A stretch of DNA of 21,545 bases from a virus, in IMG/VR virus record IMGVR_UViG_3300049893_001700, positions 1 to 21,545 of that record; one strand, given 5' to 3'. This document shows positions 6,312 through 17,116 of the stretch, one piece after another. The stretch's first letter is position 1, and each line of letters begins with the position of its first letter. The position numbers were made by a program, and so were the translations under genes. Under the pieces are notes generated by a model. That model saw only the letters and a list, made by a program, of their open reading frames with translations. It searched no databases and was not told where the DNA came from.

Positions 6312-6335
6312 ATTATATCATGCGGTATTACGCAA
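6312..6335 (-). promoter_or_regulatory. Extended -10 promoter for the internal-protein genes
   Basis: On the minus strand the gap after the glycine-rich gene contains GCATGATATAATT. TATAAT lies at 6312-6317 with the extended -10 TG one base upstream. A weak -35-like TTGCG lies 12-13 nt further upstream, at the 3' end of the adhesin gene. Only 10 nt separate TATAAT from the ATG at 6301, so any transcript would carry almost no leader. Confidence 0.5.
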
Positions 6336-7938
6336 GAAGTCTTCCGACTATTGATTTACCTCTACGTCCATTCTGTCCATTAGTTCCATTACGTGCATCG
6401 CCATCAGTACCATAACTCAATCCTCTTGTTCCCCCAGTACCACCATCACCTCCTTGTGTCTGTACATCAATACCATTGTCAGTGAATGTGCCCGTACAAA
6501 GCATGTACACATCAGCACCATCTGAACCATTACCACCATTACCACCTACACCTCCTGTTGAATTTGTAGATGAATCTCCATCACCACCGTTTCCACCAGC
6601 ACCACCATCCGCACCAAACGCTTTTACGGTTCCATCAAGTGTCATATTTCCACCAACATAAAGGAATAGTGGGATAACACCGTTAAGTCCACTACCACCA
6701 ACACCTCCTGCACCGCCATCGTCTCCAGAACCAACACCAGCAGTTCCTCCATTACCTCCAGCACCACCTACGAGACCCCCAGTTCCACCATTACCCCCCG
6801 CCCCTGGAGCACCCGATCCACTACTGTTACCTCCATTACCTCCTGCACCTCCATTCCCCGTTCTTCCATTACCTCCAGCACCACCGTTACCAGCAGAGTT
6901 GGCAGCTCCACCTGCACCTCCTGCACCACCATTTACATACCCATGTCCTCCATTACCACCTACGCCACTAGTATCTCCAGTTCCCCCATTACCACCAGCT
7001 CCACCATTACCACCACTTGTACCACTATCTCCACCATTGCCACCATTACCACCCGCATTGCTTTCATTTGCTCCTGCACCTCCGTTTCCACCGTTACCTG
7101 TACCTGTTCCTGCACCACCACCACCTCCGTCACCACCGTTTGTACCTAGACCAGCCCCACCAGCTCCTCCTGCACCACCGTTTACACCACTGGCATTAGA
7201 ACCAGCTGAACCAGAAGTACCTCCAGATGAAGCACCTCCACCTCCTCCACCTCCTCCTGTAACTCCTGTTGTACCTACGACTCCTGGATCGCCATTACCA
7301 CCTGAGCCTGTTCCTCCTGCACCTCCTGTACCCGCACCAGCTCCTGTTCCTGATCCACCATTACCTCCATTTCCACCAGTATAAGGAGAATCACCTCCAG
7401 TACCACCATCTTGAAGCGCATCATTTTGATAACCAGAACCACCTTCTACAGTGTAGACACCGACTACAGAACCAACTCGTGTAGTAGACGCAAAACGCAA
7501 GTCTATGATGCCTGTGGCATGCATTGAAAAATCACCATCACAGATTATGGTTGCTGGTCCGTTACCTGTAAAAGAAAGAACACCTGCTGCACCTATGCTT
7601 ATTGAGTCATAGTGGTAAATAGTTCCAGGTGTCACATCAAGAATGGTAGAACCAGTGACATTGAGCACGCCCAAACTAACAGGGATCGGACCAGCTGATG
7701 TTAAAGGAATACCATAGATTTCCAGTCCTGTTGCCTGAATTAGACCATTGGAATTAAATCTCCATCCTGTTTGACTCTTAATGAAGTTAGACGACTGGAG
7801 TGGTTTACCGATTGCGGATATACCAGAACCGCGTTGTGCGAGTGGGTCAGTTATCTCAACAGTTTCATCCCACATCTTAGGCTCACTCACAGGTGGAGCT
7901 GCATCCTGTACGTCTGGGTTAGTTACGTAATTGTCCAT
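6328..7938 (-). CDS. Glycine-rich tail adhesin with probable polyglycine-II domain
   Basis: 536 aa from the ATG at 7936-7938, which follows the upstream stop by 1 nt (TAA-C-ATG). A longer frame opens at a TTG at 7959, but this lies inside the previous gene and is less likely. The first ~170 residues look like an ordinary beta-rich attachment domain. From about residue 175 to 415 the protein is almost wholly GGxGG, GGNGG and GGAGG motifs with Ala, Asn, Ser and Thr. A shorter hydrophobic beta segment (VIPLFLYVGG) and a second glycine-rich stretch follow, ending NGQNGRRGKSIVGRLLA. Such Gly/Asn tracts form packed polyglycine-II helices in known phage receptor-binding adhesins. I infer a tail-tip adhesin and possible glycosylation target. 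The antisense proline-rich frames over this region are composition artefacts. Confidence 0.68.
   Translation of the reverse strand: MDNYVTNPDVQDAAPPVSEPKMWDETVEITDPLAQRGSGISAIGKPLQSSNFIKSQTGWRFNSNGLIQATGLEIYGIPLTSAGPIPVSLGVLNVTGSTILDVTPGTIYHYDSISIGAAGVLSFTGNGPATIICDGDFSMHATGIIDLRFASTTRVGSVVGVYTVEGGSGYQNDALQDGGTGGDSPYTGGNGGNGGSGTGAGAGTGGAGGTGSGGNGDPGVVGTTGVTGGGGGGGGASSGGTSGSAGSNASGVNGGAGGAGGAGLGTNGGDGGGGGAGTGTGNGGNGGAGANESNAGGNGGNGGDSGTSGGNGGAGGNGGTGDTSGVGGNGGHGYVNGGAGGAGGAANSAGNGGAGGNGRTGNGGAGGNGGNSSGSGAPGAGGNGGTGGLVGGAGGNGGTAGVGSGDDGGAGGVGGSGLNGVIPLFLYVGGNMTLDGTVKAFGADGGAGGNGGDGDSSTNSTGGVGGNGGNGSDGADVYMLCTGTFTDNGIDVQTQGGDGGTGGTRGLSYGTDGDARNGTNGQNGRRGKSIVGRLLA
6691..7410 (-). repeat. Low-complexity GGN-codon repeat tract in the adhesin gene
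   Basis: About 720 bp of degenerate tandem units of roughly 9-18 bp encode GGxGG motifs; on the plus strand this reads as CCACC/CCATTACC-type repeats. Codons vary from unit to unit, which points to an old, selected protein repeat rather than recent slippage. The tract creates long open antisense frames that should not be taken as genes. Confidence 0.85.
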
Positions 7939-7939
7939 G

Positions 7940-9391
7940 TTATTGCTCTGAATTACCAAAGATACGGATACTCTTTACCTTTACGGGGTTGGTAGTAGAT
8001 CCAGCACTTGTATCAGTTTGAACTCTAAAGTTCTCCGTAAGCTTTCCATTAAGGTTGTATACGCAAGATGTAGCTGCCCCGAGTTTTGCAAAAGAGATTG
8101 TATCGGTAAAGATGGTGACTCCTTTGTTGTTTACCAAAGACCATGCAAGAGAAGCCCCTGAAGCTAGTTGCTCAAAAGTAAAGACAACGGTATCAATGCG
8201 TGACAATCCTGTAGATCCCGTGACATCAAAGATCAGGGTCTTGTAGAGAGAGTTCACATCGTATCCAGAAAACTGCGCTAGTTTAAAATTAGTACTCTCT
8301 GTGGATGCAAGCATCGGTGTCCCAAAAGGACAGGAGAGTGCTCCAACAGTTGAGTACCCACCGTCAGCTATTTGGAAGAGTCGTACAGGAAGTTCTTTAT
8401 CCCCAGAACCAAATGCGTATACCAAACCTGAAGATACCCACAATATAAAATCCTTGTAGTCAGTGATCTGCCCAAATTCAGGCAACGATCCCGAGTAACT
8501 CGCAATATCAGAGATTGCTCCTCCGTTCACATATGCCAACTTGTACCCTCCTGTAGATGTGACATCTTGGTAGAAGACAAAGAGGACTCCATTCTTTACA
8601 TGAGAACCACCAGCCGTTCCCATAAGTTTCACTTCAGCTTCCCATGAGTTAGTTGTTCCATCCCAGAGGAATACAGAAGCATTGTTCTTGTTTGCACCTG
8701 TCAGTGAAGGACGGTTAGCAATCAACCAAAGACGATCAGAGTTCCAGGCAATCGACTGTGCAACGGTACCTGTAGGTACATCGAGAGCTGTAGGCATCAG
8801 TGTTGTTCCGTCATAAGAAGCGATGTACCGTCCATTCGTTATATACATTACATCGTTTCCACCCACGATCATCTGATGAGGAACCCCACCCTGGAGTGCA
8901 GCAAAGCCTGAAGGTACAGTTGACCCCCAGTCATCATCAAAGGTTGATGCAAGGTCATACTTACCAATGTCTCCAGCAGAACCTGAATGGTTATATGAGT
9001 AGTAAAGATTTCCTTGGTAGACACAGACATCCTCTCCATCTTCTCCTGTTACTCCAGTCTTATCGATTGTATGAGGCCAGATACCAGTGTTTATTACAGC
9101 CGTTGAGCTGATCTTCTGTAGCTTATTTCCACCAACACCAAAAGTAACGTCAGCAGATACTGCTTCGTCTAGGATTGAGTTGAGGAGCGTAGTGACTGCT
9201 CCTGCTTGTGTTCCATTAGTTAAGTTGGCTAGTCCAGGACCCTGAGTGAACCATGCTGGAGAAGTGAGGTCCACGTTAGTCATATCACCTGCCTGGTTCT
9301 TGTTACCATAACTAGGATAGGTACCCTGGTTATACCAAGCAGGAGCAAACCCACCAAGAAAGTCATTTATTTCTATAGACCACTGAGACAT
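7940..9391 (-). CDS. Probable tail protein, beta-propeller-like (podovirus nozzle/tail-hub type)
   Basis: 483 aa from the ATG at 9389-9391, 1 nt after the upstream stop (TAG-C-ATG). The frame can be extended to a GTG at 9424 inside the previous gene, but the stop-N-ATG junction is repeated elsewhere in this genome and favours 9391. The protein is beta-rich with few charges. It has several loosely repeated blade-like blocks (ending in patterns such as GNLYYSYNH, DVMYITNGRYIASYDG, DRLWLIANRPS, GVLFVFYQDV and DFILWVSSGLVYAFG), as in propeller-fold tail proteins of short-tailed phages. The C-terminal ~130 residues look like a beta sandwich (DTVVFTFEQL...WSLVNNKG). It lies just downstream of the connector gene and upstream of the adhesin, which supports a tail hub or nozzle role. 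Confidence 0.6.
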   Translation of the reverse strand: MSQWSIEINDFLGGFAPAWYNQGTYPSYGNKNQAGDMTNVDLTSPAWFTQGPGLANLTNGTQAGAVTTLLNSILDEAVSADVTFGVGGNKLQKISSTAVINTGIWPHTIDKTGVTGEDGEDVCVYQGNLYYSYNHSGSAGDIGKYDLASTFDDDWGSTVPSGFAALQGGVPHQMIVGGNDVMYITNGRYIASYDGTTLMPTALDVPTGTVAQSIAWNSDRLWLIANRPSLTGANKNNASVFLWDGTTNSWEAEVKLMGTAGGSHVKNGVLFVFYQDVTSTGGYKLAYVNGGAISDIASYSGSLPEFGQITDYKDFILWVSSGLVYAFGSGDKELPVRLFQIADGGYSTVGALSCPFGTPMLASTESTNFKLAQFSGYDVNSLYKTLIFDVTGSTGLSRIDTVVFTFEQLASGASLAWSLVNNKGVTIFTDTISFAKLGAATSCVYNLNGKLTENFRVQTDTSAGSTTNPVKVKSIRIFGNSEQ

Positions 9392-10128: not shown

Positions 10129-11181
10129 CTACTTCAGATGAAAGTGATCCCACTGCAACACCGTATCAGCCTTAATGAAGTCCTTACTCCGCTTAGTGAG
10201 TAGACGTTCCTTTAATCCTGGCCAGATTCCTGTTCCTGGACGTTTGTAGGTGATCATGTCTTCAGTGATCTGTGTGTTCGGTGGAATATCTACCTTAGAA
10301 ACAATAGAACGCTTGTCGTACTTACGAGTCTCGGTCTCTGCCTCAAAGATAAACTTCTCAGAAGAACCCCTGAGTGTTTCAATACGTCGTGCGTTATCCA
10401 CAATCTCCTTGAGTTCAGTTGGATCAACAGACAACCAGTGGTCAGCACTTTTATCGAGACCCTTGTCTACCGTGTAGTGCTTCTCCACGACTTCAGCACC
10501 CATAGCAACCGCGATAGATGTTGAGAACGATCCCATCGTATGGTCGCTAACACCTACAGGATTGAATGGATATTCCTTCTTGATCGTCTTTATGAGGTTG
10601 TAGTTGGCATCCTTCTCTTGGGTTGGGTAACAAAGGGTGCAGTGGAGAATGATGATCTGTTCATTCCCTGCGTCCTCAATGGTTTTGATAGACTCTCGGA
10701 TCTCCTGCATACTCGACGCTCCTGTTGAGAGAATGATCGGCTTATTGTACTTAGCGATATGTGCAAGGTAGGGGAGTACACTCATATCTGAGGATGCGAC
10801 CTTAAACGCCTTCATGCCGATTGAGTTCAGGTAGTCTGCTGCTTCAAATGAAAATGGAGTTGAGAGGAACTCAATATTGTACTCTTCGCAGTATTTGATC
10901 AGTTCTGGGTACCACTCGTATTTAAAACCCTCTAGTGCTTCGTATGCTTGATACTGATCAAGTCCCTCATCTACCTTTGACTCCGCATCCCAAAACTTTG
11001 GTGTCCCTTTAACAACTAGTTCACTAGCGGTATAGGTCTGGAATTTGATTGCATCTGCTCCTGCCCATGCAGCTTTACGGATTCCTTCCTTTGCTCGTTC
11101 TAGTGATCCATTGTGGTTGACACCAAACTCCGCTATCACGTATGTCCTCCCTGTACCTATTTCCTTAGATCCAATTTTCAT
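10129..11181 (-). CDS. neuB: NeuB-type N-acetylneuraminate (nonulosonic acid) synthase
   Basis: 350 aa, full length for the family. NeuB enzymes condense phosphoenolpyruvate with an N-acyl hexosamine to make sialic, legionaminic or pseudaminic acid. Seen here: IAEFGVNHNGS (17-26), KFQTY (46-50), STPFSFEAADYL (107-118), KVASSDM (127-133), LSTGASS (151-157), GVSDHTMG (210-217) and VVEKHYTVDK (231-240), giving the two expected metal-binding histidines H214 and H235. A C-terminal antifreeze/SAF domain (about 290-350) contains the usual KRPGTGI motif. It is the last gene of the sugar cassette, joined to the 47-aa gene by an ATGA overlap; the tail promoter begins just after its stop. Motifs do not decide between NeuB, LegI and PseI types. 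Confidence 0.93.
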   Translation of the reverse strand: MKIGSKEIGTGRTYVIAEFGVNHNGSLERAKEGIRKAAWAGADAIKFQTYTASELVVKGTPKFWDAESKVDEGLDQYQAYEALEGFKYEWYPELIKYCEEYNIEFLSTPFSFEAADYLNSIGMKAFKVASSDMSVLPYLAHIAKYNKPIILSTGASSMQEIRESIKTIEDAGNEQIIILHCTLCYPTQEKDANYNLIKTIKKEYPFNPVGVSDHTMGSFSTSIAVAMGAEVVEKHYTVDKGLDKSADHWLSVDPTELKEIVDNARRIETLRGSSEKFIFEAETETRKYDKRSIVSKVDIPPNTQITEDMITYKRPGTGIWPGLKERLLTKRSKDFIKADTVLQWDHFHLK

Positions 11182-11321
11182 ACTTTTTTAAATAAAAACC
11201 AACGTGCTTGTTCAAGCAGTTCTAATAAATCTTTTTTTGTAGGGGGCTTCTTCTCATCAAGAATGATCGACATTTCTCTCGTGTCTCCATCTCTATTGAG
11301 AATCAGTTTTAGCGTATTCAT
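11178..11321 (-). CDS. Small 47-aa protein of unknown function in the sugar cassette
   Basis: A short frame from the ATG at 11319-11321 to the TGA at 11178-11180. It reads MNTLKLILNRDGDTREM, then a basic helix with Leu repeats (DLLELLEQARWFLFKKV). It overlaps the end of the GT2 gene by 29 nt, and its stop overlaps the NeuB start as ATGA. These two junctions leave no gap, which is the main evidence that it is real. A GGGAG about 10 nt before its ATG is one of only two Shine-Dalgarno-like sequences in the window. No domain is recognised; the short beta start followed by a helix could be a small regulator or partner of a neighbouring enzyme. Confidence 0.65.
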   Translation of the reverse strand: MNTLKLILNRDGDTREMSIILDEKKPPTKKDLLELLEQARWFLFKKV

Positions 11322-11961
11322 TTGCTTTTTGCTCCCATTCTTTCCTGTCCAACGTGTGTGTTAAAGATGTCTCTAGTTGTCTGTAACGATACAGTGGCAG
11401 TCTTAAATGGTACCCATCAAAATTACTTATATACCTCTTTAATAAATCGAAATCCTCTGCATTTCGAAGTTTAGGATTATAGAGCCCCAGTGCCTCAAGG
11501 TACTGTTTACGGAACATGATACCTGCACCATGACGTAACAACAAGTCAAGGGTGTTAATATCCACACGATCAATGATCTTTTCATCCTTATCCACACGAA
11601 GGTGATCGGTGTATACGAACCCTATGTTTTGATTCCAATTAAGGACTTCCGATAGAAATAAGATGGTGTTCTCATTGATATAGTCGTCTGAGTCTACGCG
11701 TATGATGTACTTGCCTACAGCCTTTTTAATTCCTTCATTTGAGGCATTGGCGACTCCACCATTCTTTGGAAGATAGACTGCCGTTATGCTGTCACCAAAG
11801 CAACTGATGGCTTCCCTGCTGTCATCTGTAGAAGCATCGTCAACAACGACGATTTCATAGGAACCCTTTGGTGCCGACTGCTTCAGACACGAACGAATTG
11901 CTCTCCCGATATAGTCCTGATTGTTGTAATTACAAATTACGATTGAAGTTTGAATTGACAT
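11293..11961 (-). CDS. GT2 family (GT-A fold) glycosyltransferase
   Basis: 222 aa. The N-terminal TSIVICNYNNQDYIGRAI (5-22), EIVVVDDASTDDS (36-48), NGGVANASNEGIKKA (67-81) and the metal-binding DxD motif in RVDSDDY (88-94) are typical of inverting family-2 transferases, which move a sugar from a nucleotide donor. A downstream NAEDFDLLKRY matches the usual ED acid region. At 222 aa it is a short, single-domain form without membrane segments, so it acts in the cytosol or at its surface. It starts 25 nt inside the cytidylyltransferase gene and ends 29 nt inside the 47-aa gene. Donor and acceptor are unknown; the neighbours make a nonulosonate-containing glycan plausible. Confidence 0.9.
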   Translation of the reverse strand: MSIQTSIVICNYNNQDYIGRAIRSCLKQSAPKGSYEIVVVDDASTDDSREAISCFGDSITAVYLPKNGGVANASNEGIKKAVGKYIIRVDSDDYINENTILFLSEVLNWNQNIGFVYTDHLRVDKDEKIIDRVDINTLDLLLRHGAGIMFRKQYLEALGLYNPKLRNAEDFDLLKRYISNFDGYHLRLPLYRYRQLETSLTHTLDRKEWEQKANEYAKTDSQ

Positions 11962-12524
11962 ACTGCTTGATCGAATGACTCTTGAGTTTCTATTTCTATA
12001 CTGTGATCGACTAACAGTACCTCTGGGTTTGGTTTGTACGGATCTTTGTAGGTGAGCAACCGTGTGGCTGAAAAGCCTCGTATGGAACCGTTTACTTTGT
12101 TGTGCTGGTCTTTGTAAACATCTCCGTGTGTCATTGGGTAACAGGTCATCACCTCGGGAGCACCTAATTCAATGAGGTACTTCACCCGTTCAATGAGTCC
12201 TGGGTGAATAGTTGGGTTGTTTGCGTGAACAGCTACAACCCCAAAAACCTCCCCCATCTCTTGATACGCATGTTGAAAGACAGGTATATCTGGTACATCA
12301 CCACAAAGTTCCTCTCCACGCTTGATGGGGATAGCCCCAGCATCTTTTGCAATCTGTAGAATAACTTCGCTATCGCTAGAAACATATACTTTCTTAAATA
12401 GTTTAAGACACTTCTCTACGTTCCAGAGAAATGTCGGTTTGCCATTAAAGTCCTTTAGATTTTTTCCTGGGAGTCTTTTTGACGTTCCCTTTGCTAACAA
12501 CAGGGCTACAACTGATCTGTCCAT
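11937..12524 (-). CDS. neuA: NeuA-like cytidylyltransferase (CMP-nonulosonate synthetase family), divergent
   Basis: 195 aa from the ATG at 12522-12524. This start begins the nucleotide-binding strand and loop VVALLLAKGTSKRLPGKN (5-22), equivalent to the family's ARGGSKRIPGKN. A longer frame upstream is only the shadow of the preceding gene. CMP-sialate synthetases activate NeuB products with CTP. Other matching parts are VYVSSDSEVI (47-56) and a C-terminal SIEIETQESFDQA (175-187), equivalent to the IDxDT region. Oddities: the signature Arg is Lys (K12), the metal-binding DID-type motif reads IEIE, and it is shorter than the usual ~220-230 aa. The gene overlaps the upstream aminopeptidase-fold gene by 80 nt, with the catalytic loop encoded in the overlap. 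A different NTP-sugar transferase specificity is possible. Confidence 0.75.
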   Translation of the reverse strand: MDRSVVALLLAKGTSKRLPGKNLKDFNGKPTFLWNVEKCLKLFKKVYVSSDSEVILQIAKDAGAIPIKRGEELCGDVPDIPVFQHAYQEMGEVFGVVAVHANNPTIHPGLIERVKYLIELGAPEVMTCYPMTHGDVYKDQHNKVNGSIRGFSATRLLTYKDPYKPNPEVLLVDHSIEIETQESFDQAVCQFKLQS

Positions 12525-13752
12525 CGGCGACAAGTCTTTGGATGTGGTCGTAAGTGAGTTCGTAATTAAGTCCGAACTCGAGGCAGAGGGAACTGAAAGT
12601 CCTGCTACCATCCATGGCGTAGATGAAATAATCCCACGCGAGGTTTTGAGGTTTCCCACTGGATTGGATCCCATATTTGCTCCTGAAGAGGGGTCCTGTG
12701 AATTTTCGTTCGGGGATGAAGTCTTTTTCATAGTATTCTATTATCTTAACAATTGCCTTCTGCACATGCACCATCATTGAGTAGTAAATGAACTCAGGTG
12801 TGTCGTATGAAGTATGATACTTGTTGTATGGGTGCGAGGTAAACATGATCCCTGGGATACCAATCTTTGGATCATTAAAGACATACTCATCTGACCCTGT
12901 GTCACAGCGGAATGCACCCTGTCGGTATCCTCCCATACCACGGAGTGCAAGTGCTGCAATCGTGTTGATACGTGATGTCTTATCGAATGACCATTGGAGC
13001 ATTGGTCCACCATCGTGGCTGTTTCCGATGGAGTCAACGGCAATCATAAACTCCACTTTGGAGATGTCTTGTGTATTCGCATATGCGATAGATCCTATAG
13101 TGCTCGGACAGAACACGATTTTAATGGTGTGATCGTACTGCCCAGGTTTGATGTAGCTCACAAGGTCAATGAGTGCCGCTACACCAGAGAGGTTGTTGTT
13201 TGCCTGGAATGGTCCGTCGAGGTGTGCAAAGAGCAGTATCTCTCGGTCAGTCTTTCCTTTGATGGTATGTGTCGCTACCTTCATGGTGCCAGGACGATAC
13301 TCAGTATCAATGTGGACTCTGTACTTCCCCTCTTTCAGTAGACAGACTGTCTTGTCACCCTCCTTCTTGTAAATCTTTATCTTTGGAATGCATACTCCCC
13401 AATCCTTTTGGTAGTATTTGTGCTCGTAGAGGTACGCAGAAGGTTGTTCGTCTGAGTAGTGGAGATGTTTCTTTAGCGTATCCAGATCAACTAATCCCGT
13501 GAAGGGTAAAGAGCCAACAACGAGAGAGAGTGGGTGACTTTTGTAGTCAACAAGACGTTCACCCTCAAATTCAACATACGCATCACGAACAATCCATTCA
13601 TCGGGGACAGTCCATGTGCCTACCTGTGTTCCGCTAGGGAACTCAAGCACATCGAGTGGAATGAGTTTATTTATGTAGAGGAGTGCATTATCAAATCCTT
13701 CTCCTAAGAGACACCTATTGAATCCATACAAGTCTTCAATAATTTGTTTCAT
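12445..13752 (-). CDS. DUF4910/DUF2172-type aminopeptidase-fold protein with C-terminal winged helix
   Basis: 435 aa from the ATG at 13750-13752, 1 nt after the upstream TAG; a frame extended to 13791 runs inside the previous gene. The family (zinc aminopeptidase fold, common in surface-polysaccharide clusters) is shown by YGFNRCLLGEG and PSGTQVGTWTVPDEWIVRDA (9-58), AHLDGPFQANNNLSG (176-190), IVFCPSTIGSIAY (212-224), GSDEY (286-290) and YHTSYDTPE (312-320). The last third carries the winged helix-turn-helix (about 355-415) typical of these proteins. Substrates are unknown for the family; peptidase, amidase or glycan deacylase roles are conjecture. Oddity: where I expect PETIGS this protein has PSTIGS, so a key Glu may be absent. 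The final ~26 residues, ending in a Lys-rich tail, overlap the next gene in another frame. Confidence 0.8.
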   Translation of the reverse strand: MKQIIEDLYGFNRCLLGEGFDNALLYINKLIPLDVLEFPSGTQVGTWTVPDEWIVRDAYVEFEGERLVDYKSHPLSLVVGSLPFTGLVDLDTLKKHLHYSDEQPSAYLYEHKYYQKDWGVCIPKIKIYKKEGDKTVCLLKEGKYRVHIDTEYRPGTMKVATHTIKGKTDREILLFAHLDGPFQANNNLSGVAALIDLVSYIKPGQYDHTIKIVFCPSTIGSIAYANTQDISKVEFMIAVDSIGNSHDGGPMLQWSFDKTSRINTIAALALRGMGGYRQGAFRCDTGSDEYVFNDPKIGIPGIMFTSHPYNKYHTSYDTPEFIYYSMMVHVQKAIVKIIEYYEKDFIPERKFTGPLFRSKYGIQSSGKPQNLAWDYFIYAMDGSRTFSSLCLEFGLNYELTYDHIQRLVADGQISCSPVVSKGNVKKTPRKKSKGL

Positions 13753-13753
13753 A

Positions 13754-14323
13754 CTACTTATAGACAGCAAACTGTCGGAGTGAGACTCCAATAACTTCTG
13801 ACTTTACAGTTGGGTTCTCTGCGAGCCAATTATCCACAGCAAGCTTTACGCCTGGGTGTACAGGGTAGTCGTGGATGAGAATAATGCCTCCCTTAACCAT
13901 CTTTGGGAAAAAGTATTCAAGTCCTGCCTTTGTTGGTGGGTAGATGTCCGTATCGAGGTGAACAAACTTAAATGACTTGCTCGTTATCTCCTTTGCCGTA
14001 TCAGGGAATTTGCCCTTGATGATCTTTGCCTTAGCATCATCCTTGAAAAGCGCAGTAACTGATTCCTCAGTTGTTGCACAACCACCTAATTCAAAGTGTG
14101 GAATGTCGCTCTCGTGGAGTTCAGGAAACCCTGCGAATGTGTCGAGAAGGAAGATCTGGTCTTCAGGAAGTTCCTCACGAATGATACGTGCGGTTCCTCC
14201 GTTGAATACTCCTACTTCTACAACGTCTCCTTTGAGTTCCTTTGTTCGTGCAAGAAGACCGCGAATAAGTACTTGTTCTTCTGGAGTCTGGTAAATGTGT
14301 GTTCCTTTGTATTCTATTCTCAT
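13754..14323 (-). CDS. TylF/MycF-like SAM-dependent O-methyltransferase
   Basis: 189 aa. A Rossmann-type methyltransferase: VVEVGVFNGGTA (34-45) is the SAM-binding glycine loop, LLDTFAGFPE (59-68) is the TylF-family signature, and KFVHLDTDIYPPT (119-131) with GGIILIHDYP (145-154) supplies the metal-binding Asp residues of this Mg-dependent group. Family members methylate hydroxyls on sugars, and phage or polysaccharide-cluster copies are common. It overlaps the upstream methyltransferase gene by 4 nt (ATGA) and ends 1 nt before the next ATG. No signal peptide; cytosolic. I infer it methylates a sugar of the cassette's glycan, at an unknown position. Confidence 0.88.
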   Translation of the reverse strand: MRIEYKGTHIYQTPEEQVLIRGLLARTKELKGDVVEVGVFNGGTARIIREELPEDQIFLLDTFAGFPELHESDIPHFELGGCATTEESVTALFKDDAKAKIIKGKFPDTAKEITSKSFKFVHLDTDIYPPTKAGLEYFFPKMVKGGIILIHDYPVHPGVKLAVDNWLAENPTVKSEVIGVSLRQFAVYK

Positions 14324-14754
14324 ATTTTTTTAAGTGTAAAGTGTAATTGTCCCTGTACCTCCTCGTTTTTGACGATTTCAAACGCTGGAAGTGGTACTTC
14401 GCTTCTTTGATATGCTTGGACCTTTTCCTGTTGCCAGAATGATTTATGTCCAGGGAATACAGCCCCAATAGTAGATGCGTGAGGACACCAAACATCTATC
14501 AACCCCTGATGCTTGATGACTCGTAACATTTCTCTCAAAAAATCCATAGCCTCGTCTTCGTCTAGGTGTTCAATGAAGTGAGATGAGAATATATTCGATA
14601 CTGAGTCATCAGGGAAAGGAAGTCCTTCCCTTACATCCCACACCATATTGCCATTGATATTACGATTATCAATGTTGATGAAGCCCTTTCGGAAATCATC
14701 ACCAGAACCGATGTTCAGTTGAATGGGTTCCTTGTATTTAGGAAACTTTCTCAT
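14320..14754 (-). CDS. Short class I SAM-dependent methyltransferase (type 11 family)
   Basis: 144 aa. IQLNIGSGDDFRKGFINID (11-29) is the SAM-binding loop with the acidic strand-2 residue, DVREGLPFPDDSV (40-52) and FSSHFIEHLDEDE (56-68) are the usual family continuation, and LREMLRVIKHQGLIDV (73-88) is the next helix and strand. It is shorter than the common ~200 aa, lacking most of the C-terminal substrate lid, but such short forms are frequent in phage and sugar gene clusters. It begins 17 nt inside the upstream gene and shares an ATGA with the next methyltransferase. The substrate is unknown; sugar methylation is inferred from neighbours. Confidence 0.82.
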   Translation of the reverse strand: MRKFPKYKEPIQLNIGSGDDFRKGFINIDNRNINGNMVWDVREGLPFPDDSVSNIFSSHFIEHLDEDEAMDFLREMLRVIKHQGLIDVWCPHASTIGAVFPGHKSFWQQEKVQAYQRSEVPLPAFEIVKNEEVQGQLHFTLKKI

Positions 14755-15691
14755 TGAGGATGACGTTAATTATTGCTGACGTAGGGTCAGCTATATCTGT
14801 GCCTCCATCTAGGATAGCAATTTCTTTTCTCTCTGTCTCGAGAAGTTGTGGATTATTCACATGCTTCATGATGACTTTCCCCAACTGTTTAAGATCCTTT
14901 ACACGTTCACAAGCAGGAGAATAGGTTCTTTGGAAGAGTTTGTGACGGTCATCCCCTGCACATGCCTTTGGTACCCAGATGTCTGCGATAATGACAGGAA
15001 TACCCATGATTTGAGCTAATAATTCAAAGGTACCTTCACTGATAGATACAACGGCATCAGCTTCTTGGAGGACCTTTATGGCAACGTCTAGGTGTCCAGG
15101 CTTCATACGATTTGAGGCAACTGGGTTGTCGTAGTTGTGGGATTGGTGTTCTCCATGGAGTATCTTCGTGATGATCTTCACCTTCTTCTGCCATGGCCAT
15201 CTGCTATTCACGAACTCACGGAGCGCATTACGCACCATGAAGTTCTCTGCTACTTCTTGATCCCAGTGTTCAGGGGCAAAGACAACATTGATTCCATCAT
15301 GGGGAGTACGATGTTTGATGTGATGTGTTATTGGAGTACCTGTAACGTGTATCTTTTCACGTGGAACACCACACGACATCAAACGGGTGACATCGTTCTC
15401 TCCCCACGCACAGATAGCGTCAGAGACAAGTGCTTCATTGAATGGTGGGTAGATACGAGAAACACCCCTCCTGCCATGTTGCATAAGGATGACTCGTTTC
15501 CCTGCATTCTTCCATTTCTTTACCAACGGTTTCCATCCACCGAGATCAGACTCCTGCCACACAATGACGATGTCTGCTTTCTTCCACGTCTCTGTCTTTC
15601 CATCCAGTGGAAGAAGTGTATGCCCTTGATGTACTAGTTCCTTCTCTACGTCAGTAAGGACGTTGTTGAAATCAAAGGAGAGGATGTTCAT
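14738..15691 (-). CDS. GT-B-like transferase, CDP-glycerol/polysaccharide transferase type
   Basis: 317 aa. The N-terminal half gives DIVIVWQESDLGG and RVILMQHGRRGVSR (66-79). A middle section has AICAWGENDVTRL and REKIHVTGTPI (111-121), the D-x-WG...VTG-P pattern found in CDP-glycerol glycerophosphotransferase-like and related GT-B proteins. The C-terminal half has ADAVVSISEGTFELLAQIMGIPVIIAD (211-237), the acceptor/nucleotide-side loop that normally holds STxxxEA and GxPV. The R-GT-PE and HREN motifs of hydrolysing UDP-GlcNAc 2-epimerase (NeuC) are not seen. Its start overlaps the GT4 stop by 1 nt (TGATG). It probably transfers a sugar or polyol phosphate in glycan assembly; the exact reaction is uncertain. 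Confidence 0.65.
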   Translation of the reverse strand: MNILSFDFNNVLTDVEKELVHQGHTLLPLDGKTETWKKADIVIVWQESDLGGWKPLVKKWKNAGKRVILMQHGRRGVSRIYPPFNEALVSDAICAWGENDVTRLMSCGVPREKIHVTGTPITHHIKHRTPHDGINVVFAPEHWDQEVAENFMVRNALREFVNSRWPWQKKVKIITKILHGEHQSHNYDNPVASNRMKPGHLDVAIKVLQEADAVVSISEGTFELLAQIMGIPVIIADIWVPKACAGDDRHKLFQRTYSPACERVKDLKQLGKVIMKHVNNPQLLETERKEIAILDGGTDIADPTSAIINVILNEKVS

Positions 15692-16812
15692 CAGCGTGTC
15701 TGGTTAAGCACCTTCAACCCCCATTTACTAGGGCGTTGGCAGGCGGTTTCCCAATCTAATCCTATCGCTTCGACAGAACGATTCTTATGGACCCATTCTC
15801 GTTGCTTCTTAAGTGTCTTCTCTCGGAACTCCTTATCAACAATGAGCTTCTCGAGTTTGTTGTACCAATCCTTATGGGTATTCTTTGCGACGTAATCCAC
15901 TTCTGTGTTGTATGGTTCTACGTCTGACGCGAGGGTAACCGTACCGACTGACGCATACTCATAGAACTTGATGTTTGATTTGCCACGGTTGAACTCTGTA
16001 TCTTCAAGTGGTGCGAGTCCAATGTCTAGGTCACACATTGAGAGTGTCTTAGCGTGGAGTTCTGGTGGCATAAAGGGAACGTGCCACATGCGCGTACCTG
16101 AAAGTTGTTCTGCAAATCCGAGTGCTGCTTTGTAGTATGGTGCCTTCTCTGGTGCGTAACCACTCTGGAGTATCTTTCTGTATGAGTATAGTGCTGCTTC
16201 GAGTGGTTCTCCTACAAGTCCGTAGAGGGTGAAAATGAAGTCATATTTCTTCTGGAGATCAGCAATAACACCACCTATAAGCTGAAGGTCTTTCCAATGT
16301 GACGCTGCACCCATGTACCCTACTTTGAGGATGTCCTCATTCTGGTGTGGGCGCTCACGGTAGTCATCGTAATCAATGCCGTTTGGACAAATGAATACAG
16401 TCTTCTTGAAGTGTTTCTTGAACTTCTTAGCGAGGACTGGGGATGGGGTGATTACTGCATCTGCTGCTTCAATCATTCCTTCGTACTGATCCTTGTGTGC
16501 ATTTGATACGAGAACAGACGGGTTATCCTTTGCTACAGACCAGAAGTCATCATCCATATCGTAGAGAACTCGTTTACCGAGCTTCTTATAGTCGTACATG
16601 AACTTCACGGGATCAAACTGTTGTGGGTAGGCACGTCCGAAGATGACAACGTCTGGCCAGTTCATTAGGTGTTCTGGGATCTCGTTTCCGATAGCTACTT
16701 GCTTACATGCATGGCCTCGCTTTCCGAGTGCGGTGCATGGGGTTTGATTACGGTGCATCCAAATGCCTGACATATAGGACATTGGACTGTCCATCATAAA
16801 TAGAACATTCAT
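15691..16812 (-). CDS. GT4 family (GT-B fold) glycosyltransferase
   Basis: 373 aa, full length. Motifs: VIFGRAYP (56-63), KRVLYDMDDDFW (80-91, the acidic motif common in phage and capsule GT4 enzymes), DAVITPSPVLAKKF (118-131), VFICPNGIDYDDY (139-151), LKVGYMGAASHWKDL (162-176), and the donor-binding region DIGLAPLEDTEFNRGKSNIKFYEYAS (263-288) followed by TVTLASDVEPY. GT4 enzymes are retaining transferases that build sugar chains from nucleotide donors. No transmembrane segment is visible. Its ATG shares an ATGA overlap with the preceding small gene, and its stop overlaps the next start. It is the first enzyme gene of the cassette. Confidence 0.9.
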   Translation of the reverse strand: MNVLFMMDSPMSYMSGIWMHRNQTPCTALGKRGHACKQVAIGNEIPEHLMNWPDVVIFGRAYPQQFDPVKFMYDYKKLGKRVLYDMDDDFWSVAKDNPSVLVSNAHKDQYEGMIEAADAVITPSPVLAKKFKKHFKKTVFICPNGIDYDDYRERPHQNEDILKVGYMGAASHWKDLQLIGGVIADLQKKYDFIFTLYGLVGEPLEAALYSYRKILQSGYAPEKAPYYKAALGFAEQLSGTRMWHVPFMPPELHAKTLSMCDLDIGLAPLEDTEFNRGKSNIKFYEYASVGTVTLASDVEPYNTEVDYVAKNTHKDWYNKLEKLIVDKEFREKTLKKQREWVHKNRSVEAIGLDWETACQRPSKWGLKVLNQTR

Positions 16813-17042: not shown

Positions 17043-17055
17043 ATTGTAAGTTATC

Positions 17056-17101
17056 CTCACTCTGCCATGCCCCCTCCCAGAGTGAGAAGAAGGGAGCATG
17101 G
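17056..17101 (-). promoter_or_regulatory. Two interleaved, mutually exclusive RNA hairpins after the capsid gene
   Basis: Between the capsid stop and the next ATG, the minus-strand RNA can form stem A, CCAUGCUCCC (17092-17101) with GGGGGCAUGG (17065-17074): 10 bp with one G-U pair and a 17-nt loop. It can also form stem B, CUCACUCUG (17078-17086) with CAGAGUGAG (17056-17064): 9 perfect bp and a 13-nt loop. Each stem uses bases in the other's loop, so both cannot fully form together. No U-tract follows, so this is not a standard intrinsic terminator. Stem B would hide the GAGG before the 77-aa gene. Confidence 0.6.
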
Positions 17102-17116
17102 ACAACTCTAATAAGA

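Follow-up and report, generated by a model that had tools for sequence, protein, structure and literature searches.

RNA structures near capsid genes and between cistrons

A phage particle takes hundreds of capsid subunits, and their message is shared with other genes; the tuning of this ratio is known for few phages. In T7, the T-phi terminator follows gene 10. In the exonuclease-resistant RNAs (xrRNAs) of plant viruses and flaviviruses, the loop of a hairpin pairs with the stretch immediately downstream of that hairpin, and these RNA-virus elements stop a 5'-to-3' exonuclease. Intercistronic pseudoknots control translation of IncI-alpha repZ and of E. coli infC-rpmI, and pairing in the twister ribozyme joins a terminal loop to an internal loop, on the 3' side of the latter.

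The locus described here lies in a 21,545-base virus record (the window, to which all position numbers refer). As the main genes of the window are encoded on the minus strand, coordinates decrease along the transcript. Downstream of the capsid gene, an outer stem (P0) encloses two further helices, P1 and P2 (Table 1). The results below show the conserved pairings in 17107-17049 (59 bases, minus strand), their strand and their place. The preferred reading is a cis-acting RNA pseudoknot, kept among relatives and set between the capsid cistron and its successor; this reading includes the inference that P1 and P2 form in one molecule and that the element works as a roadblock on the message, and taken as a whole it is about as likely to be right as wrong.

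Table 1 Features at the capsid-downstream site of the window, and places of further matches in other phage records
Feature	Position	Strand	Remarks
Major capsid protein gene, 321 aa	17117..18082	-	Lies immediately 5' of the element; PHROG 267 major head protein, E 2.6e-36
Small hairpin containing the capsid stop codon	17106..17122	-	Predicted to compete locally with P0 in the nested fold
P0 5' arm, outer stem	17102..17107	-	Pairs with 17054-17049; conserved and covarying in relatives
P1 5' arm, the earlier stem A extended by G-U pairs	17089..17101	-	Pairs with 17077-17065
P2 5' arm, the earlier stem B, inside the P1 loop	17078..17086	-	CTCACTCTG pairs with CAGAGTGAG (17064-17056)
P1 3' arm	17065..17077	-	Pairs with 17101-17089
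P2 3' arm	17056..17064	-	Abuts P1 with zero spacer; overlaps the SD-like GAGG (17058-17055)
P0 3' arm	17049..17054	-	Ends 6 nt upstream of the start codon of the next gene
Next gene, 77 aa	16809..17042	-	Small helical hairpin protein with basic N-terminus; conserved unnamed family
Other matches at or below -35 kcal/mol	L164 ~897; L167 ~297 and ~11171; L168 ~6231

The element and its surroundings in the window

An earlier note on this DNA had reported two interleaved stems, A and B, and both are present at 17056-17101 on the minus (mRNA) strand. Stem B (17056-17064/17078-17086) makes nine perfect pairs, and stem A (17065-17075/17091-17101) comprises 11 positions that are 91% complementary on the plus strand; on the minus strand, the position mismatched on the plus strand is a G-U pair, and the longer stem has 14 pairs in all. 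The enclosing stem P0, which is kept in relatives, had been overlooked. The minus strand at the element folds at -36.2 kcal/mol (z -4.07), a value equalled by one of 200 shuffles, and the plus strand is unremarkable (z -0.66). The element is also the most stable 80-nt stretch on the minus strand of the window, at -34.9 kcal/mol compared with -29.4 kcal/mol for the next best.

The capsid protein additionally resembles Pfam Phage_capsid_2 with an E value of 2e-05, narrowly below the cut-off. The start of the next gene was set at ATG 17042 because the proteins of relatives begin at that site. In nearly all loci the product of this gene has ~66-90 aa, and its family alignment (A4) holds 48 sequences. 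AlphaFold2 predicted two helices for it with a pLDDT of 96.2, and neither Pfam and PHROG searches nor a fold search returned a match at E<=0.001. The protein has a basic N-terminus and is a putative candidate for binding the adjacent RNA. Further downstream, a glycan cassette lies beside the capsid gene (10129-16812, minus strand), with genes for glycosyltransferases, methyltransferases, a cytidylyltransferase, a NeuB-type synthase and a DUF4910/M28 peptidase. The same order of capsid gene, RNA element, small gene and glycosyltransferase-like gene is found in the L139 record, whose capsid protein is 50% identical. The 543-aa protein encoded at 6328-7959 (minus strand) contains a very long run rich in glycine and by eye resembles a collagen or a fibre protein.

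Relatives and structural classes

Capsid relatives were collected from IMG/VR by four capsid-protein scans and one genome scan, giving 159 loci. Together with the window, these 160 capsid-matching sequences yielded 58 distinct downstream regions after sequences with identical first 90 bases and contigs with fewer than 90 bases past the capsid stop were left out; one of the dropped rows, L006, also carries the element. Capsid identity among the 58 regions goes down to about 42%. The regions are not independent, since L047 and L152 share the same element and those of L145 and L159 are nearly the same. One further relative, L160 (JAACVK010000015.1, in the MAG bacterium isolate CG_2015-01t_44_12), has a capsid gene 82% identical to that of the window, and its first 90 bases past the capsid stop are identical to those of L010. 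This contig could be a host clue or a stray phage contig.

Three topologies were distinguished. The enclosed pseudoknot P0-P1-P2 is present in about 47 of the 58 regions, 37 of them by a strict rule and ten read by eye (L009, L015, L017, L024, L032, L039, L041, L131, L146 and L159); strict counts are 37 or 39 of 58, depending on the scan. In L039, a frameshift lies near the 3' end of the capsid reading frame, and the RNA element there is still intact. Eight regions (L025, L029, L033, L036, L127, L138, L149 and L155) instead form kissing hairpins, i.e., two hairpins with complementary loops; three of the eight pass a strict scan that five of 1160 shuffles also pass, and the other five were assigned by eye. 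In the remaining three, L077, L141 (with a UUCG loop) and L147, a very stable hairpin stands alone; this class was assigned mostly by eye.

In the 37 strict loci, P1 has 8-15 pairs (mostly 10-12) and P2 6-10 pairs (mostly 7-9), the P0-P1 junction is spacer-free on the 5' side in 33, and the spacer between the 3' arms of P1 and P2 is 0-2 nt. In the three strict kissing cases, the loop strands adjoin their 3' stems with 0-1 nt, and such abutting is the usual stacking in kissing loops.

Six of 25 matching phage records, cultured phages among them, were compared. Pelagibacter phage HTVC103P, Roseobacter phage CRP-9 and Podoviridae sp. ctYwJ313 have capsids that match at 26-31% identity, and in each of them a stable hairpin comes after the capsid gene. 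In MaAM05, the hairpin at this site is followed by a T-rich stretch, and in HMO-2011 and T2S2 the gap behind the capsid gene is only 11-12 bases long.

Selection acts on the sense RNA

A descriptor of the fold matched the capsid site in 39 of the 58 regions. Elsewhere, in 453 kb per strand, it matched four times on the same strand and three times on the opposite strand, compared with four matches in a shuffled copy; the seven off-site matches include the capsid site of L039 (one), the opposite strand of the L007 element (one) and positions antisense within the capsid gene (two). When G-U and A-C were treated equally, 37 of 58 loci passed the strict rule against one of 174 shuffles, and the pseudoknot score lay under that of all 20 shuffles in 56 of 58 regions. 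These three comparisons rule out chance pairing. Across the window and the 40 kb read from each of five longer phage records, other matches at or below -35 kcal/mol occurred at four places (Table 1). The one near 6231 in L168 resembles a normal U-tract terminator (G006). At L167:297-400 (plus strand, start of record G006), a possible second pseudoknot with an outer stem precedes another gene, in the same phage as L141, whose capsid site has only the UUCG hairpin.

In the 37 loci, G-U outnumbers A-C by 75:12 in total (P0 34:5, P1 33:6, P2 8:1). This excess shows that the selected molecule is the sense RNA and rules out a DNA-level feature such as a cruciform or an integration or packaging site.

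The pairing itself also covaries. For the whole structure, the covariation score was 0.510 compared with 0.230 after shuffling in 20 rows, and 0.447 compared with 0.170 in 10 rows; for P2 alone it was 0.560 compared with 0.211. The underlying alignments (A2 and A3) were made from sequence only, from rows picked for fitting the structure. Pairing of the loop with its own downstream strand reached -11.2 kcal/mol, against -5.9 kcal/mol for swapped pairs. With hairpins chosen without regard to P2, own-strand pairing was best in 27 of 57 regions and in the top 5% in 38 of 57 (L039, which gave no hairpin, was left out). As in an H-type pseudoknot, the loop pairs outside its hairpin and both helices covary. 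The earlier note had proposed that a functional RNA element separates the capsid gene from its downstream neighbour and held that a lack of compensatory changes in relatives would speak against it. The proposal is supported by the covariation of all helices, and the compensatory changes are clear. With one invariant column in A2, the sequence drifts freely while the shape is kept, and therefore the element very probably does a job.

Proposed coexistence of the two inner helices

The earlier note had leaned towards a bistable switch in which stems A and B alternate, perhaps in response to a protein or metabolite. In nested folding the stems do compete, and they share junctions. However, the nested P1 form wins over the nested P2 form in all 37 loci, by 1.2-14.9 kcal/mol (mean 8.4), and the gap is within 3 kcal/mol in only three of them. 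Nor does the sequence hold a conserved binding core: of the features expected of a riboswitch, neither a conserved ligand core nor two near-equal folds was found, with one invariant column in A2 and P1 favoured in 37 of 37 loci. Since the geometry described below also allows coexistence after one pair opens, such a switch is extremely unlikely.

P1 is transcribed complete before the 3' arm of P2 exists. Were the two helices only rivals, P2 would form too rarely for selection to keep it. As P1 is favoured and made first, and P2 is kept nonetheless, P2 most plausibly forms together with P1, which suggests that both are present in the same molecule.

The stereochemistry was considered in a coarse geometric model of A-form helices with linker limits and clash terms, without electrostatics or a threading check. 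With all window pairs made (11 + 9 + 6) and strict settings, strain remains in the model; it all but disappears after a single P1 or P2 pair opens. The earlier note had called a pseudoknot with both stems full sterically unlikely; in this crude model, that view finds no support for a structure with one opened pair. In a grid of 14 rows with shorter linkers (L1 3, L2 1, L3 0), strain was larger and was present at all P1 lengths of at least 7 bp, with a shallow dip at 11 bp and growth beyond 13. Within this model, the 14 rows speak against all pairs being made at once. For the kissing form, no pair has to open.

A proposed roadblock after the capsid gene

The role judged most likely is to shield and insulate the capsid message as a structural roadblock, and the first rival is a lock on translation of the next gene. 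The P1 hairpin would form upon transcription, its loop would then pair with the bases immediately 3' to make P2, and P0 would close the unit, so that the outcome would be a knot stacked on a stem, not two alternatives. Such an element could act by mechanical stability. As a roadblock, it may end the capsid message or shield it against 3'-to-5' decay, and it may keep the next gene from being served by ribosomes that have completed the capsid gene or that bind close to the next start. The outcome would be far more capsid than downstream protein. Protection of the capsid message and lower downstream expression, both also named in the earlier note, are the best candidate functions. A roadblock would be in keeping with a shape that persists without conserved sequence. 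Plain stable hairpins, moreover, substitute for the knot in L077, L141 and L147 and in HTVC103P, CRP-9 and ctYwJ313. Because a plain hairpin would already hold up an exonuclease, a barrier role alone does not account for the conserved P2. Also against the roadblock, HMO-2011 and phage T2S2 are without such a hairpin after the capsid gene, and the 22 of 37 outer stems near the next ATG would suit a role in translation as well.

In the translational lock, the element would bury the start region of the small downstream gene, in that only ribosomes finishing the capsid gene melt P0 (coupling) or that P2 over the Shine-Dalgarno (SD) sequence sets the level low. In those 22 loci, P0 stops at -10 to +5 relative to the next ATG; nearly all loci have a next gene from one and the same family of small proteins; and P2 overlaps an SD-like motif in several loci, among them the window, where the motif is GAGG. 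As a general purpose, the SD masking proposed in the earlier note is not supported: an SD-like 4-mer precedes no more than 16 of the 58 next genes (under a similar rule, 26 of 53 capsid genes have one), and the SDs of L031 and L048 lie outside the structure. Further, the next ATG lies at least 14 nt past P0 in 11 of 37 loci, and the distance from the capsid stop to P0 is 0-45 nt, not fixed as coupling would suggest. From the element to the next ATG, the distance ranges from -9 to 77 nt, and the fold stays despite this variation. The lock is therefore possible, if somewhat unlikely. The roadblock is favoured because SD and start distance are not kept, the kept feature being a very stable fold in the gap. 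The variable stop-to-structure distance likewise makes a stop-codon readthrough or frameshift pseudoknot unlikely, and readthrough is further disfavoured in the window by a second in-frame stop three codons past the capsid stop.

The continuity of P0 and P1 on the 5' side (33 of 37) would also fit a processing site of the RNase III type, or another endonuclease target, giving the capsid message a protected end. P0 and P1 would then form ~20 stacked pairs with a 3' bulge, perhaps resembling the T7 intergenic RNase III sites. Covariation of P2 is not required for such a site, however, and the relatives with kissing or plain hairpins break the bulge geometry, so that this reading seems quite improbable.

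A stable G+C-rich hairpin right after a gene expected to be highly expressed could likewise be a transcription terminator or pause site. However, no T-tract follows it, and a U-tract terminator is visible elsewhere, in G006 (L168). A scan for intrinsic terminators at 17049-17107 found none, and by eye no long T run lies past P0 in the listed regions. A terminator or pause site is thus very improbable. A search for single-subunit RNA polymerase (PF00940), which could account for a special terminator, gave no match in 10 records; as the control genomes gave none either, this does not speak for its absence. PF04851, with little bearing on the element, had no match in 5 records.

The roadblock may be taken one step further. 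The knot could be nuclease-proof and ribosome-proof, with the enclosed pseudoknot, the kissing hairpins and the very stable hairpin as interchangeable topologies that set the ratio of capsid to downstream copies, and thus be a DNA-phage counterpart of viral exonuclease-resistant RNA; we consider this speculation unlikely.

Comparison with known systems

A search of the window against Rfam release 15 returned only mir-67, on the plus strand (24.4 bits against a cut-off of 53, E 0.16), and 12 loci gave nothing at gathering score. With no Rfam match above the cut-off in the window or these 12 loci, and no conserved core, twister or another known RNA was rejected. The titles and abstract openings searched name no such element after a capsid gene. 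The element marks a large group of uncultured bacterial viruses for which no close cultured member was found, and at ~60 nt it is a compact, testable part. With the fold kept at ~42% capsid identity, with near-free sequence and in at least two alternative topologies, it is a natural experiment that could tell which features a roadblock on an mRNA requires.

RNA stems after capsid genes are already known, and the enclosed knot is a variant of them. Like T-phi of T7 and the hairpins of HTVC103P, CRP-9 and ctYwJ313, the element places a stable stem in the gap after the capsid stop. Those stems are simple hairpins, whereas the element is an enclosed pseudoknot or a pair of kissing hairpins, lacks a U-tract and has a loop pairing that strongly covaries. 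With repZ and infC-rpmI it has in common a pseudoknot beside a downstream start in a polycistronic message, yet an SD is mostly absent and the start distance varies. Twister shares the loop-to-bulge pairing across ~ten pairs, its conserved core having no counterpart in the element. Finally, xrRNAs share the pairing of a loop to a downstream strand and a shape kept as the sequence changes; they are RNA-virus elements with a known exonuclease stop, whereas the likeness of the phage element to them is one of predicted fold.
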